Assembly (NCBI GenBank): GCA_020445315.1
Contig: JAGRGW010000071.1
Coordinates: forward strand, 1 to 42,690
From: Gammaproteobacteria bacterium
Lineage (GTDB): Bacteria > Pseudomonadota > Gammaproteobacteria > Chromatiales > Chromatiaceae
DNA: 42,690 nt
Reading direction: 5' to 3'
The notes under the pieces are model-generated. The model ran no database searches and was not told the origin of the DNA. It saw only the letters and a program-made list of their open reading frames with translations. A program made the position numbers and the translations under genes. Positions 6,477 through 13,227 of the stretch are shown here, piece by piece. The first letter of the stretch is position 1; the number at the start of each line of letters is the position of its first letter.

Positions 6477-8279
6477 TTACAGGCGGTTGAGTTCGACGCG
6501 GCGGTTCTGTGCCTTGCCGTCGGCCGTGTCGTTGCCGGCGATCGGCTGTTCCTCGCCGAATCCCTTGGCAATCATGTTGTTCCGGTCGACGCCGTGCTCG
6601 GCCAGGTAGCTGACCACTGCCTGCGCGCGGCGCTGCGACAGGTCCTTGTTGTACGCCTCCTCGCCATCGCTGTCGGTATGTCCGGCGACCATGACCTTGA
6701 TCTGCGGGTTGGCCGACAGCGTCGCCGAGACGCCGTCGAGAATCGCCAGTGAATCCGCCGTCAGTTCGTCGGAATCCGTTTTGAAGTTGACGCCACGCAG
6801 CACGATGCGCGCCGTCTCGGCGCAACCCAGTGCATCCACCGCGGTATCGGGGGCCGTCTCCGGGCACAGGTCGGTCGTATCGGCGACGCCATCGCCGTCG
6901 CCGTCAGCCGGGCCTTCCGGCTCCGCTTCGGCGGGTGCCTGTGGCATCGGCTGCGGTGGCATCGGCGGCATCGGGTAGACCGGGCCGCCGTACTGGTAGC
7001 CATAACCACGACCGTAGCCATCGCCGTAACCGCTGCCATAGCCCCGGCCGGTCAGGTCAGCGCTGGCGCGGCCACTCATCGCGAAGCTGAAATCCACGTC
7101 ACCGGCAGCATCACCGGTGGCGTCGCCGGTCGTATTGCCCCAGCCGTCACCCCAGCCACTGCCGTAGTTGTTGTTCCAGCCGTTGCCGCCCCAGCCGCTG
7201 TCCCACGGCATCCAGCTGTTGCCCCAGCCGTTGTTACCCCAGCCGCTGTCCCAAGGCATCCAGCTGTTACCCCAGCCGTTGTTACCCCAGCCATTGCCCC
7301 ACGGCATCCAGCTGTTGCCCCAACCGTTGTTACCCCAACCGTTACCCCAGCCATTGCCCCAGGGTGTCCAGCCGTTGTTCCAGCCACGGTAAGGGCCGGG
7401 GCCCCAGCCGCCGCCATACGGGGCTCCACCCCAGGGCCCGTATGCCGGTACCGGTCGGTAGACCGGCGGAAACGGGCGCATGGCCGGTGCATCGATCGCC
7501 GGTGCAGCTTCCCCTGTCATGGTGGGTGCTGCCGGTCGCGGCGGTGCGGTGGGGCGCTCGGCAATGGCGGCATGCCGCGTGCTGATCCATTCCGGTATCG
7601 CCGGGCGAGCCGGTGGTTCCGCCCGGGCCGGTGCGGCTGGCGCAGAGGATTCGGGTTGTGCGGCAACCGGCGGACGCTGCGGCGGTTGTGGCGCCTGCGG
7701 ACGCTGCGGCCGTGTCATCGCTGCCGCCTGTCCGTCCGTCATGCCCGGCATGGCGGGCCGCTCGGGTGGTGAAGGCGGTGTGAAATCGCGTGTACCGGCG
7801 GACGCATTGCCGACCCAGTCCGGCACCGCGGGCCTTTCCATGGGTTGCGGCTGCGCCGGTGGTTGTGGTCGAGCGGGTGGTGCCGGCCGTGCTTCGGGTG
7901 CCGGTGGTGCGGACATCGTGGCGTATTGTTCCACCACCCAGGCCGGGAGCGCGGTCTGATCGACTGTCTGCTCGGGTGGTGCGAAGTCACCCGGCAGGGG
8001 CACGCCACTGGTTTCGTAGGTTGGCGGTTGCGGCGGTTGAGGCGCGGCCGGTGGTTCGAACTTGCGAGCCGACGTGCCGTCGATCGTCGTTTCCCTGATG
8101 CCCAGTTGCGCGCGGCGCTCGCTGACCCAGCTCGGTACCGGCGGTATGCCGGGGCCCGTCGGATTGACGACGGGTTGGGGCGGTGCGAACTGGACCGGGG
8201 GCGGGTTGGATTCGGCAAGCACAACGGGCAGGCCGGCGACCCCGAAAAGGGTACTCGCGATCAGTAGCGGTTTATACAT
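6477..8279 (-). CDS. OmpA-domain outer-membrane protein with Pro-rich and Trp/Gly/Asn-rich repeats
   Basis: The start is set at the ATG at 8279, which has GGAGAG about 8 nt upstream and begins a Sec signal peptide (MYKPLLIASTLFGVAGLPVV, then LAES). The frame is open upstream to 8489, but that part is Arg-rich and not signal-like. The 600-residue product has a Pro/Ala-rich region (about 20-290) with recurring P-x-W-hydrophobic segments. A Trp/Gly/Asn/Met-rich region follows (about 295-390), then a Gly/Tyr/Pro stretch, a thrombospondin type 3-like Asp-rich motif (DGDGDGVADTTDLCPETAPD) and a C-terminal OmpA peptidoglycan-binding domain (about 480-600) with GHTDSDG, NKDLSQRRAQAVVSYL and NRRVEL. 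It should tether to peptidoglycan from the outer membrane or periplasm. The repeats resemble sulfur-globule-type proteins in composition; that link is inference. Confidence 0.85.
   Translation of the reverse strand: MYKPLLIASTLFGVAGLPVVLAESNPPPVQFAPPQPVVNPTGPGIPPVPSWVSERRAQLGIRETTIDGTSARKFEPPAAPQPPQPPTYETSGVPLPGDFAPPEQTVDQTALPAWVVEQYATMSAPPAPEARPAPPARPQPPAQPQPMERPAVPDWVGNASAGTRDFTPPSPPERPAMPGMTDGQAAAMTRPQRPQAPQPPQRPPVAAQPESSAPAAPARAEPPARPAIPEWISTRHAAIAERPTAPPRPAAPTMTGEAAPAIDAPAMRPFPPVYRPVPAYGPWGGAPYGGGWGPGPYRGWNNGWTPWGNGWGNGWGNNGWGNSWMPWGNGWGNNGWGNSWMPWDSGWGNNGWGNSWMPWDSGWGGNGWNNNYGSGWGDGWGNTTGDATGDAAGDVDFSFAMSGRASADLTGRGYGSGYGDGYGRGYGYQYGGPVYPMPPMPPQPMPQAPAEAEPEGPADGDGDGVADTTDLCPETAPDTAVDALGCAETARIVLRGVNFKTDSDELTADSLAILDGVSATLSANPQIKVMVAGHTDSDGEEAYNKDLSQRRAQAVVSYLAEHGVDRNNMIAKGFGEEQPIAGNDTADGKAQNRRVELNRL
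7185..7330 (-). repeat. 48-bp tandem coding repeat in the OmpA-family gene
   Basis: Three near-identical 48-nt units are seen; the marker ggcatcc recurs at 7206, 7254 and 7302, exactly 48 apart. Each unit encodes 16 residues of the form NNGWGNSWMPW(G/D)(N/S)GWG, flanked by degenerate GWGN copies. The differences are mostly Gly-Asn versus Asp-Ser and synonymous changes, suggesting recent slippage or unequal exchange. Confidence 0.85.
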
Positions 8280-8631: not shown

Positions 8632-10209
8632 ATGAACGACCCTACTGGCGACAGCTTCCTGTTGCCGCAACGGACCGATCCGGAACGGCTGGCAAAGCTG
8701 GTTGGTGGCCCACAGCGTTGCGTGGTCGACGAATCGCTGAGTTTCGATCTGACGTTCTTCGACAGCTTCGACTGGCGATTGCACGCGGCCGGTTTGAGAT
8801 TGATGCGGCTGGTGTCTTCCGAGGGTGGCCTGCTGCGGTTGAAGCGCGAAGACGCCACCGAAGTGGTCGACCCGGTGGAGAGCGATGTCGAGCCGGCCTG
8901 GCCGGCGCAACTGCCTGGCGGCCTAATCCGTGAACAGGTTGCGGCGCTGCTGGAAATGCGTGTGCTGCTGCCGGTTGTCAGCGTGCATTGCCGCGTAACC
9001 GAACTGCGCGTGCTGAACGAAGACGCCAAGACCGTGGCGAGGCTGCAGTTCCTGGCGATGCAGTGTGATTCCGCTGCGACACAGGAACCACGCATGCTGT
9101 GGCCGCGCGTGCGGGTTTTGCCGGTGCTTGGCTACGAGAGCGAATGCCAGTGCCTCGTCGATCATTTTGCCGGCGAGATGGAGTGGCCGTACGCGCCGGC
9201 CTGCGTGTTCGACGAGTCAGTCGCGGCGATCGGCCGCGAGCCGGGCGACTACTCATCGAAGCTGACGCTCAAGCTCAAGCATCAGCAGCATGCCGTCGGC
9301 GCGCTGCGCAAGATACTGTTGACCCTGCTGGGGACGATCGAGCGTAACCTGGCAGGAACCCGGGCCAACCTCGATTCAGAGTTCCTGCACGACCTGCGGG
9401 TGGCGACCCGGCGGACGCGTTCGGCGCTGTCACAGGTCAAGCAGGTGCTGCCCGACAGTATCGTCGAAGACTACAAGCAGCGGTTCGGCTGGCTTGGCCA
9501 GGTCACCGGTCCGACCCGTGACCTGGATGTATTCCTGCTCGAGTTACCGCGCTACCGTGCCAGCCTGCCGGCGGCGATGGCGCACGATCTCGATGCTCTC
9601 GAGGCGCACCTTCTCGGCACGCACAAAACCGAGCAGGCCCGCCTGAAGCGCAAGCTGGGCAGTGCCGAGATGCGGACGCTGCTTGACGACTGGCGCGCGG
9701 TGCTGGAGGCCGACCCGCCGCCGGGTGACCCGGGCCTTTACGCCGACCTGCCGATCGAACTGGTCGCCGCACGACGTATCTGGCGCATGTACCGAAAGGT
9801 GATCAAGGCCGGCCGGGCCGTCACCACCGATGGTGCGCCGGAGGCGATGCACGAATTGCGCAAGGACTGCAAGAAACTGCGCTACCTGCTGGAGTTCTTC
9901 CGCAGCCTGTTTCCCGACAGCCACGTCAAGAAGATCGTGCGGGCACTGAAAAACCTGCTCGACATCCTCGGGGATTTCCAGGACCTGGAGGTGCAGGCAG
10001 ACGAGTTGCGTGGTTTTGCAGCCGCGTTCGCGCCCGACGATCCGGCCCGCCTGCGGACGGTGATGGCGATCGGGGCACTGGTCGCCGACCTGTTGCGTCA
10101 CCAGCAGGCAGCGCACGAGCGGTTCGCCGGTGCGTTCGCCGACTTCGATTCGGCCGGCAACCGCGCCGAGTTCAAGCGGCTTTTCAAAGCAGAGGAATCG
10201 TCAAGCTAG
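8632..10209 (+). CDS. CHAD-domain protein with CYTH-like N-terminus (polyphosphate-binding family)
   Basis: Residues about 215-515 form a CHAD domain: an alpha-helical domain with paired conserved basic motifs, here HDLRVATRRTRSAL (about 253) and MHELRKDCKKLRYLLEFF (about 406). CHAD domains are known to bind inorganic polyphosphate and to localise to polyphosphate granules. The first 200 residues (DLTFFDSFDWRLHAAGLRLM, RVTELRVLNEDAKTVARLQF) look like a degenerate CYTH fold, the usual partner of CHAD; the canonical ExExK start motif is not obvious, so triphosphatase activity is doubtful. There is no signal peptide or membrane segment. It is followed 7 nt later by a ParA-type ATPase, so the two are probably co-transcribed. 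Confidence 0.88.
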   Translation: MNDPTGDSFLLPQRTDPERLAKLVGGPQRCVVDESLSFDLTFFDSFDWRLHAAGLRLMRLVSSEGGLLRLKREDATEVVDPVESDVEPAWPAQLPGGLIREQVAALLEMRVLLPVVSVHCRVTELRVLNEDAKTVARLQFLAMQCDSAATQEPRMLWPRVRVLPVLGYESECQCLVDHFAGEMEWPYAPACVFDESVAAIGREPGDYSSKLTLKLKHQQHAVGALRKILLTLLGTIERNLAGTRANLDSEFLHDLRVATRRTRSALSQVKQVLPDSIVEDYKQRFGWLGQVTGPTRDLDVFLLELPRYRASLPAAMAHDLDALEAHLLGTHKTEQARLKRKLGSAEMRTLLDDWRAVLEADPPPGDPGLYADLPIELVAARRIWRMYRKVIKAGRAVTTDGAPEAMHELRKDCKKLRYLLEFFRSLFPDSHVKKIVRALKNLLDILGDFQDLEVQADELRGFAAAFAPDDPARLRTVMAIGALVADLLRHQQAAHERFAGAFADFDSAGNRAEFKRLFKAEESSS

Positions 10210-10216
10210 GACTTTC

Positions 10217-10990
10217 ATGAAGATTCTGGGCGTTTATAACATCAAGGGCGGCGTGGGCAAGACGGCCTCGGCCGTCAACATTGGCCATCTGGCCGCCAAG
10301 AGCGGACTGCGGACGCTGATCTGGGACCTCGATCCGCAGGCGGCGGCCACCTTCTACCTGCGCGTCAAGCCGAAGGTGAAGGGCAGCAACAAGCTGTTGC
10401 AGGGCAAGCGCGACCTGACCGACGTACTCAAGGGGTCGGATTATCCCAACCTCGACCTGCTGCCGGCCGACTTTTCCTACCGGAACATGGATCTGAAACT
10501 CGGCGAGAGCAAGAACCCCGCGGTGCGGCTGCTCAAACTGCTGCGGCCGCTGTCAGAGCGGTACGACGTCGTCGTGCTTGACTGCCCGCCGAGTATTTCG
10601 CTGGTGTCTGAGAACATCTTCCGCGCCGCCGATGCGCTGCTGTTGCCGACGATCCCGACGACGCTGTCATTGCGCACGATGAACCAGTTGCTCGATTTCA
10701 TCGAGGGTCACAAGCTGCAGACGCCGGTGTACACCTTTTATTCGATGGTGGACCGTCGCAAGAAACTGCACCTCGAGGTCATCGCGAGCCGGGGTGATCC
10801 ACGCTGCACCGTACTCGAGACGGTGATTCCCTATGCCAGCGAAGTCGAACGCATGGGGTTGGAGCGACGGCCCGTCACCGACTTCGCGCGCAGCTCACCG
10901 GCGGGCCGTGCCTACGAGGCACTGTGGAACGAGATTCGGCAGCAGGTTGGCGGCATGAAGCCACAGCGGATTGCGCAGTACCCGTTATGA
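10217..10990 (+). CDS. ParA/MinD-family ATPase paired with the CHAD gene
   Basis: A 257-residue cytoplasmic ATPase. The start is the ATG at 10217; the open frame upstream lies inside the CHAD gene and is not family-like. The N-terminus has the deviant Walker A KGGVGKT (signature Lys 10, P-loop Lys 15), then WDLDPQAAATF (A' motif) and VVVLDCPPSISLV (Walker B). These are the marks of ParA ATPases that form ATP-dependent dimers and position DNA or other cargo. No ParB-like gene or parS site is seen nearby, and the only close partner is the CHAD gene 7 nt upstream, so chromosome segregation is unlikely to be its role. Positioning of a CHAD-coated polyphosphate granule is inferred. Confidence 0.92.
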   Translation: MKILGVYNIKGGVGKTASAVNIGHLAAKSGLRTLIWDLDPQAAATFYLRVKPKVKGSNKLLQGKRDLTDVLKGSDYPNLDLLPADFSYRNMDLKLGESKNPAVRLLKLLRPLSERYDVVVLDCPPSISLVSENIFRAADALLLPTIPTTLSLRTMNQLLDFIEGHKLQTPVYTFYSMVDRRKKLHLEVIASRGDPRCTVLETVIPYASEVERMGLERRPVTDFARSSPAGRAYEALWNEIRQQVGGMKPQRIAQYPL

Positions 10991-11037: not shown

Positions 11038-13227
11038 TCAGCCGATCTGTCGCAGCAGGGTCTCGATCTTTTCGCGCTGATCCGGGTCCTCCGCGACGGC
11101 CAGCGCCTGGTGGAGCATGTCCCGGGCACCATCCTGGTCACCGATCTCGAGGTAGGCGCGGGCGAGGTCCAGGCTCATCGTGAAGGTGTCGTCGTCCAGT
11201 TGCTCGCGCGCGAGCGGTTCGTCGAGCGACAGGTCGGCGGCCTCGCTGAGTTGGTCGACGGGTATCGTGTCTTCGAGCGGGTCCAGGTTGAGTTTCGACT
11301 GGGTGGAAGGTGCCGGCTCGCGAGCATTCTTCAGCTGATCGTCGAGCTCTGTCAGGATGCTCGGCAGGTCGTCGTCTTCGAGGGAGCCCTGGTTGTTGGT
11401 GGCAGCACGGCTGCTGCCCGCATCGAGTTCCGCCACCCAGGAGGCCAGGTCGTCATCGTCGAATGCGGGAGCGGCTTCGGGCGGCGGTGCCTGCCGTGCC
11501 GGCCGGTCTGCCGCCGCGCTTCGGTTTGAGCCCGTAGCCTTGGCCGATTCCTGTGCCCGCTCTTCGGCCAGCTGATCCATGATCGACTCGACGTCGAGTT
11601 CCGGATCCGTGTCGTCGAGCGGCGGCAGTTCGATACTTTCCTCCGCTACTGCCGCTTCGCGCGCTGCGGATGCCTGTGCGCGGTGCATATCGCTCGCCGC
11701 GGCACGCATTTGCGGCTGCGATGGCGTGGTGGGCTCGGTCGTCGCCTGGTAGGCGTCCAGCGCCTGCTCCGCCGTTGGCAACGTCGCGATGGCGTCTTCC
11801 TGTTCCGACCGGCGAAATACCAGGATCAGCGCACTCAGGCCGGCCAGGCCCAGCAGCACCCAGGCCAGCCAGGCGTACTGCTCGTGCAGCGGCTTGACGG
11901 GTACGGGCGGGGTCGCCTCGATTCGCGTGGTGATTCCATCGTTCGCGGGTTGTTCGACAGCGGCAACCTGCGGCGCGGCGATGCCGGTTTTCGCGGCTTC
12001 GTCGACGGCCTCGGGTACCGCCGGGCGAACCGGCTCGGGCGGCGCCGGCTCAGCCTCGCGGGCAGCGGCGCGGATGGCCTCCTGGGCCGAGACCTCGGAC
12101 TGCAGCGCCAGGATCTGGGCGTCTTTCAGCTCGACGAGTTTCTGCAGGCGATCGAGTTCCGACTCCATGCGTTCGAGGCGTGCCTCGATGGCATCGGTCG
12201 TGATCCGGTTGCTCTCGACCTCTTCCATCGTGACCAGGAGCTGCTCCTTGATCGCCTGGTCGCTGCCTTCGTCGATTTTTTCCTTGCCTTTCTCGCCGAC
12301 GATGCGCAACTGCACGTCGTCTTCGGTCGGCCGGGCAGCCGTCGGCGTGGTTGTCTCGGCGACGGGCGGTGTCTCGCTGCCGGCGCCATCTTCTGCCGGT
12401 CGCGTTGTCGGAGCCGGTGAGGTGACGGCGGGAGTGGCCGGTTCCACCGTGCGCGGCGATGTCGCAACCGGCGCACGCCAGCGACGGACCTGTTCGCTGA
12501 ATTCGCGCCGCGCCGTGGCCGCGTCCATCTCTTCGATGAAGCTGCGTGTCGGTATCGTCAGGCGCGCACCGGCGCGAAGCTGGTTGACGTTGCCGTCTAT
12601 GAAGGCCTGCGGGTTCGCGCGCAGAAGGGCCATCGCCATCTGCCGCGTGGTGATGCCGCTTGGCTTGAGTTTCTTGGCGATCGGCCACAGCGTCTCGCCG
12701 CGCTGAACCGGTCCGTACACCGTACCGGCGGCAGCGGCTGCCGGCGGCGGAGTCGGTCGCCTGACCGGCGTCGCCGTGCGCGTCACGCTGGCCGTCTTGA
12801 CGACCGGGGCCGGTCTGCCCGGAGGGTCGAGCAGCAGCGTGTACTGGCGAATCAACTGGCCACCGGGCCAGGCCATCAGCAGCGGGAAGTCGAGGAAGGG
12901 TTCGTTGACCGGTCGCGAGGTGGTCGCGCGCACGACCCAGTTGCCATCGTCCTGCACGATGGCGAACTCCATGCTGGCGAGCAGTCGCGTGTAGTTCACG
13001 CCGAGCCGGTCGAAGACGGCCTGGTCGGCCAGCCGCAGACGCAGTTCTTCGTGCTGCCCGGGCGCGAGGCCTATCAGCGGGATCTCGACGTCGAGTGGCT
13101 GGTTGAGGTACGACAGCACCTTGGCCTGTCCGAGCGTCACGGCCAGCGCCGGATTGCCGGAAAGCATCACGACCAGGAGCAAGACACCCGCGAACGGTGT
13201 CACCAGTGAATACAGTCTGCTTCGCAT
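11038..13227 (-). CDS. fimV: FimV/HubP-family polar hub protein
   Basis: A 729-residue inner-membrane protein. Residues 1-29 are a signal peptide (ending NPALA), about 30-137 the FimV N-terminal domain (TLGQAKVLSYLNQPLDVEIP), and about 170-227 a LysM-type peptidoglycan-binding domain (QRGETLWPIAKKLKPSG). A coiled coil with EARLERMESELDRLQKLVEL is followed by a transmembrane segment WLAWVLLGLAGLSALILVF and an acidic cytoplasmic region. The C-terminal FimV motif is LDLARAYLEIGDQDGARDML. FimV/HubP proteins mark the pole and organise type IV pili, flagella and chemoreceptors, and recruit ParA-like ATPases. It is convergent with the ParA-type gene. Confidence 0.93.
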   Translation of the reverse strand: MRSRLYSLVTPFAGVLLLVVMLSGNPALAVTLGQAKVLSYLNQPLDVEIPLIGLAPGQHEELRLRLADQAVFDRLGVNYTRLLASMEFAIVQDDGNWVVRATTSRPVNEPFLDFPLLMAWPGGQLIRQYTLLLDPPGRPAPVVKTASVTRTATPVRRPTPPPAAAAAGTVYGPVQRGETLWPIAKKLKPSGITTRQMAMALLRANPQAFIDGNVNQLRAGARLTIPTRSFIEEMDAATARREFSEQVRRWRAPVATSPRTVEPATPAVTSPAPTTRPAEDGAGSETPPVAETTTPTAARPTEDDVQLRIVGEKGKEKIDEGSDQAIKEQLLVTMEEVESNRITTDAIEARLERMESELDRLQKLVELKDAQILALQSEVSAQEAIRAAAREAEPAPPEPVRPAVPEAVDEAAKTGIAAPQVAAVEQPANDGITTRIEATPPVPVKPLHEQYAWLAWVLLGLAGLSALILVFRRSEQEDAIATLPTAEQALDAYQATTEPTTPSQPQMRAAASDMHRAQASAAREAAVAEESIELPPLDDTDPELDVESIMDQLAEERAQESAKATGSNRSAAADRPARQAPPPEAAPAFDDDDLASWVAELDAGSSRAATNNQGSLEDDDLPSILTELDDQLKNAREPAPSTQSKLNLDPLEDTIPVDQLSEAADLSLDEPLAREQLDDDTFTMSLDLARAYLEIGDQDGARDMLHQALAVAEDPDQREKIETLLRQIG

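Follow-up and report, generated by a model that had tools for sequence, protein, structure and literature searches.

A conserved gene pair for a CHAD protein and a ParA-type ATPase as a likely positioning system for polyphosphate granules

A gene for a CHAD-domain protein and a gene for a ParA-type ATPase form a conserved pair that likely encodes a two-part positioning system for polyphosphate (polyP) granules. The analysis establishes the two genes, the conservation of their pairing and overlap, their link to polyP (ppk1 neighbours and polyP-binding residues) and the dependence of a motif in the pseudo-TTM domain of the CHAD protein on the presence of ParA. The positioning itself is proposed by analogy, without localisation, interaction or mutant data. 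The pair lies in a stretch of 42,690 nt from a Gammaproteobacteria bacterium of the Chromatiaceae (GCA_020445315.1, contig JAGRGW010000071.1, positions 1 to 42,690), referred to as the window. The genome is a metagenome assembly, 80% complete, in which three PPK2 are present and no PPK1 was found.

The two genes are located on the same strand, with a gap of exactly 7 nt:

8632–10209, forward strand: CHAD gene, ATG at 8632 to TAG at 10209, 525 aa, proposed granule-bound adaptor
10208–10211, forward strand: AGGA, resembling a ribosome site in sequence, overlapping the CHAD stop codon and 5 nt before the parA start
10217–10990, forward strand: ParA-type ATPase gene, ATG at 10217 to TGA at 10990, 257 aa, proposed positioning ATPase

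A longer ORF (10130–10990) is merely an upstream GTG extension of the parA ORF. The pair is flanked by two minus-strand genes, an OmpA-family gene upstream and a FimV/HubP gene downstream. No ParB-like gene was found beside the pair (neighbours checked: CHAD, FimV and OmpA), which leaves the partner criterion for a ParABS system unmet, and no carboxysome or McdB-like gene adjoins it, as an McdAB system would require. The initial annotation, made from the sequence alone, had described a CHAD gene and a ParA-type ATPase gene 7 nt apart, with no ParB visible; the former is upheld by the ORFs and Pfam matches, the latter for the genes adjoining the pair.

The FimV/HubP gene (11038–13227, minus strand) encodes a polar landmark and is convergent with parA. 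The order FlgL, OmpA, CHAD, ParA, FimV, PseB is retained in a complete genome of the same genus (L107). The OmpA-family gene (6477–8264, minus strand) has repeats rich in Trp, Gly and Asn, with a match to the Sulphur globule protein family (PF17228, E 2.4e-9).

The adjacency of the two genes extends far beyond chance. Across many phyla a CHAD gene immediately precedes parA, as it does in 85 of the 131 loci examined; the pairing is seen in Gammaproteobacteria, Alphaproteobacteria, Chlorobiota, Acidobacteriota, Actinomycetota, Desulfobacterota, Calditrichota, Planctomycetota, Lentisphaerota and further groups. Where the distance was measured (95 pairs), its median is -4 nt, an ATGA-type overlap suggestive of translational coupling. 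Within the family of the window, 96 of 210 genomes contain a ParA orthologue, which directly follows CHAD in all but five of them (G003, G447, G481, G512 and G566; from a reading of the coordinates). In an even draw of Gammaproteobacteria the ParA clade is present in 57 of 369 genomes, and a scan of species genomes found members also in Bacteroidota and Zetaproteobacteria, besides Chlorobiota, Acidobacteriota, Actinomycetota, Desulfobacterota, Calditrichota, Planctomycetota, Lentisphaerota and Alphaproteobacteria.

The CHAD protein matches Pfam CHAD (PF05235) over residues 228-460 (E 4.6e-59; 200.6 bits against a gathering score of 25.6), and an AlphaFold2 model (pLDDT 95.5, pTM 0.92) reveals two domains:

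8635–9249, forward strand: N-terminal pseudo-TTM (CYTH-fold) domain, residues 2-206, without ExExK, proposed ParA-facing part
9250–10197, forward strand: CHAD domain, the polyP-binding module, residues 207-522, matching structures 6qv7 and 6qva
9388–9411, forward strand: H253, R256 and R260, the same residues under the same numbers as in the polyP cavity of C. tepidum CHAD (alignment; mutagenesis in PMC6537752)
9517–9519, forward strand: R296, polyP cavity residue (alignment with C. tepidum CHAD)
9880–9885, forward strand: R417-Y418, equivalent to R418/Y419 of the C. tepidum polyP cavity

Residues 207-522 of the model superimpose on the CHAD protein from C. tepidum (6qv7; Z 36.9, rmsd 1.9 over 315 residues) and on its polyP complex (6qva; Z 36.0). 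The C. tepidum protein has been crystallized with polyP, binds polyP in vitro, and its cavity residues have been mutated (PMC6537752). The window protein has all six of these mutated residues, four with the same residue number, so that both the helical-bundle fold and the basic polyP cavity residues expected of a CHAD domain are found. That the protein coats granules as an adaptor is inferred, in the absence of localisation data. Residues 2-207 match TTM/CYTH structures (Z 11-14, VIA-align) and have the tunnel fold of that group. The catalytic ExExK, however, is absent from its expected place, both here and in 171 of the 172 long-form relatives, which makes the N-terminal domain a pseudo-TTM. 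Some divergent ParA loci (L134, L136, L138) pair with CHAD-only partners that lack this domain, and an absolute need of the pseudo-TTM for pairing with ParA is thereby rejected.

The strongest evidence for a partnership comes from two short motifs in the pseudo-TTM domain that decay when ParA is missing:

9028–9030, forward strand: K133 codon, K in 57/57 ParA-bearing rows and changed in 21/25 ParA-less rows
9130–9135, forward strand: G167-Y168 codons, GY or GF in 57/57 ParA-bearing rows against 0/25 ParA-less rows

In the family of the window, 92 rows were scored, 57 ParA-bearing and 35 ParA-less. The ParA-less relatives retain the CHAD gene, and the N-terminal domain is gone in 10 of the 35 rows. 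Other positions are not affected: D44, F46, D47, W48, R110 and L112 are kept at 100% in ParA-less rows, and 31 columns of the CHAD domain are kept at 99% on average. The motif was picked on six ParA-less genomes and then tested on 19 new ones, in which K133 was lost in 16 and GY in all 19; neither was lost in any of 27 new ParA-bearing rows. A tree built solely from CHAD columns yields five independent contrasts, and every one of them goes in the predicted direction (sign test p 0.0625, the minimum possible with five contrasts). The Fisher values ignore relatedness, and are not independent evidence. In the six genomes with ParA and CHAD both present and unlinked (five Methylococcales, one Acidobacteria), the motif is kept throughout, which indicates that it follows the presence of ParA rather than gene order. 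Functional coupling of CHAD and ParA through the pseudo-TTM domain is the likely explanation of the correlated decay, although there are no interaction data.

The gene neighbourhoods connect the pair to polyP metabolism. A ppk1 gene is found within 5 kb of ParA in 17 of 131 loci, against approximately 0.55 expected under random placement, an expectation that ignores the relatedness of the loci. In one genome (G216) ppk1 replaces CHAD directly before parA, and a Calditrichota locus has the order ppk2-CHAD-parA-ppk1. A genome encoding a CHAD domain 100% identical to the crystallized C. tepidum protein, and from this identity inferred to be C. tepidum itself, has ppk1, a 273-aa ORF, CHAD and parA consecutively on one strand, with 2 nt between CHAD and parA. 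The CHAD protein crystallized with polyP thus belongs to the same ParA-paired family. PPK1 is encoded in 51 of the 57 ParA-bearing genomes of the gammaproteobacterial draw, versus 166 of the 312 without ParA. This co-occurrence is weakened as decisive evidence by several near-complete, pair-bearing relatives in the family of the window that lack PPK1 yet carry PPK2.

Two further arrangements were seen in these neighbourhoods. On Paracoccus megaplasmids (L303, 4299–7651; L304, 3288–6653) a small hypothetical gene, CHAD, the ParA-type ATPase, CYTH and NUDIX stand in a row. In the C. tepidum-type locus, the 273-aa ORF that separates ppk1 from CHAD (L334, 9031–9852, minus strand) is conserved and has no assigned function; it also precedes CHAD in close relatives of that locus.

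The ATPase matches AAA_31 (E 1e-34) and contains the ParA/MinD signature:

10244–10264, forward strand: deviant Walker A motif KGGVGKT, residues 10-16, signature lysine K10

Residues K10, G11, G12, G14, K15 and T16 are invariant among 26 aligned family members, as the Walker A criterion for ParA/MinD proteins demands. None of the curated NCBI ParA subfamilies (RepA, SopA, MinD, BcsQ, partition ATPase) reaches its cut-off, the best scores being 78.7 against a cut-off of 348.45 and 73.6 against 180. The protein belongs to a mostly chromosomal clade of its own that stands clearly apart from other ParA/Soj proteins: among matches in relatives, full-length members of the clade have E-values no higher than 2.5e-56, and other ParA proteins none below 4.9e-29. 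The genome of the window itself also encodes a Soj-type ParA, outside this clade. Only nine plasmid records with members at 41% identity or above were among the best matches; the two that were inspected are from Paracoccus and also carry CHAD. The match of the window ParA to McdA (6noo) is distant (E 4.5e-16).

Some members of the ParA clade, in Bacteroidota, in Zetaproteobacteria and in an NtrC-linked group, have no CHAD partner. A recognisable long CHAD was not found in the Bacteroidota and Zetaproteobacteria genomes searched, nor a long CHAD in two genomes checked (G417, G214) for the NtrC-linked branch. The notion that all members of the clade serve polyP is unsupported for these reasons, and the function may be broader than polyP in some lineages. 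The contexts themselves are varied. Bacteroidota (Ferruginibacter, Sediminibacterium and others; L195, L209, L220, L224, L236) have the ParA clade without a long CHAD that could be recognised in the genomes checked, one weak match (L320) aside, and an esterase gene follows ParA in the loci inspected. In Methylococcales (L172, 8001–11311; L183, 8001–10288; L188) ParA adjoins a glycogen phosphorylase or an MgtE magnesium transporter gene, and a long CHAD gene is located elsewhere in the same genomes; other storage cargos are conceivable there. A diverged branch of ParA (L152, L155, L157) follows a gene for an NtrC-like response regulator.

We hypothesize that the CHAD domain would grip polyP on the granule and that the fused pseudo-TTM domain would provide the partner face that recognises ParA. 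ATP-bound ParA would associate with the nucleoid, and the granule-bound partner would set it free. Granules would then follow gradients of ParA, which would space them or distribute them when the cell divides, in the manner of carboxysome positioning by McdAB. Direct contact, stimulation of the ATPase, binding to the nucleoid and movement of granules are all inferred steps. Basic partner residues act on ParA-type ATPases, as described for K7 of McdB (PMC12204374), and the invariant lysine K133 fits this pattern. We also entertain a bolder reading, which could as readily fail as hold: an ATP-driven ParA ratchet for polyP granules shared across phyla, with a catalytically dead TTM domain, converted into a module that partners ParA and joined to a polyP-binding CHAD domain, as the adaptor, and with some lineages exchanging the adaptor for PPK1 or putting the ATPase to use on other storage cargos, for example glycogen.

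The initial annotation had cast the CHAD protein as cargo adaptor and the ATPase as positioner. This is supported overall, while the act of positioning remains an inference. The link of the CHAD protein to polyP is supported by the cavity residues, the ppk1 neighbours and the C. tepidum binder, without binding or granule data for the window protein, and the joint action of the two proteins by the correlated loss of the N-terminal motif in the absence of ParA. It had named a lack of conserved adjacency as a result that would refute it; this was tested, and adjacency is conserved across phyla. Only the CHAD domain had been recognised, and the fused pseudo-TTM went unseen.

The main rival reading is that ParA is a regulatory ATPase of polyP metabolism, which binds CHAD or PPK and exerts ATP-responsive control over the growth of granules or the turnover of polyP. 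A ParA that regulates polyP enzymes and leaves the granules unmoved would agree with most of the data. The neighbours are polyP enzymes (ppk1, ppk2, CYTH, NUDIX), the partner gene in G216 is ppk1 itself, and the pseudo-TTM shares the fold of triphosphate enzymes. However, ParA/MinD proteins of known function mostly place cargo (PMC10241942), the deviant Walker motifs of the ATPase cycle are intact, and ExExK is gone from the pseudo-TTM domain; we consider this reading unlikely. Even less probable is that the pair ties granules to the pole, with the ATPase acting there and not along the nucleoid. The convergence of parA with the FimV/HubP polar landmark, in a synteny held in the complete same-genus genome, speaks for it, as does the polar location of polyP granules in some species (PMC13052382), but FimV is a neighbour within the genus only and other genes take its place elsewhere. 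That ParA merely serves the ordinary partition of chromosomes or plasmids, and stands beside CHAD by accident, agrees with its generic annotation and with the name given to it in two Acidithiobacillus papers (PMC6416229, PMC10892726), but is all but ruled out by the separation of the clade from Soj-type ParA, the lack of an adjoining parB, the rarity on plasmids (with CHAD on both Paracoccus plasmids inspected) and the recurrent pairing with CHAD and ppk1 and linked motif loss, which it leaves unexplained; plasmid partition in particular was rejected on clade separation, plasmid rarity and CHAD pairing.

If the positioning reading is correct, storage granules become a further cargo of ParA-type ATPases, a function is found for orphan ParA proteins of many phyla, and CHAD proteins gain a role beyond binding. 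A 2025 review leaves open whether ATP is spent on the localisation of polyP granules, and lists AlgP as the sole positioning factor (PMC13052382). A conserved ParA partner beside a polyP-binding gene makes this energy question directly testable in hosts that can be cultured and are non-pathogenic; a structure of CHAD with polyP already exists, and K133 and G167-Y168 are singled out as targets for mutation. The literature searched, which left subscription papers and preprints largely uncovered, yielded no paper that connects CHAD and ParA with granule positioning; a study of multiple ParA/MinD proteins mentions neither CHAD nor polyphosphate (PMC10241942). The folD-ppk-parA-CHAD cluster of Acidithiobacillus has already been drawn (PMC6416229, 2019; PMC10892726, 2024). 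The initial annotation, which had called for a literature check on a known ParA in granule positioning, was unaware of it. In these papers parA is labelled a chromosome or plasmid partition gene, and the breadth of the pairing, the motif coupling and granule positioning are not put forward in the relevant sections.

The proposed system shares features with several known ones. With ParABS it has in common the ParA family and the deviant Walker motif; in contrast, the adjoining partner here is a polyP-binding protein, and there is no ParB gene beside the pair. AlgP of Pseudomonas aeruginosa sets the spacing of polyP granules through the nucleoid (PMC9239181), but is a single histone-H1-like DNA-binding protein for which no ATPase is known. 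Characterized CHAD proteins and phosins (C. tepidum CHAD, PptA, YgiF) share the CHAD fold and the polyP cavity residues. The work on them, however, concerns polyP binding and association with granules, and no ATPase partner is proposed in the literature sections consulted; YgiF, moreover, was crystallized with tripolyphosphate in its TTM domain, whereas the window protein lacks ExExK. In McdA-McdB, as here, a ParA-type ATPase and a cargo-bound partner are encoded with the genes of the cargo, and basic residues of the partner matter. The cargo here would be polyP instead, the ParA proteins are only distantly related, and the partner is a folded pseudo-TTM-CHAD protein in place of the disordered McdB.
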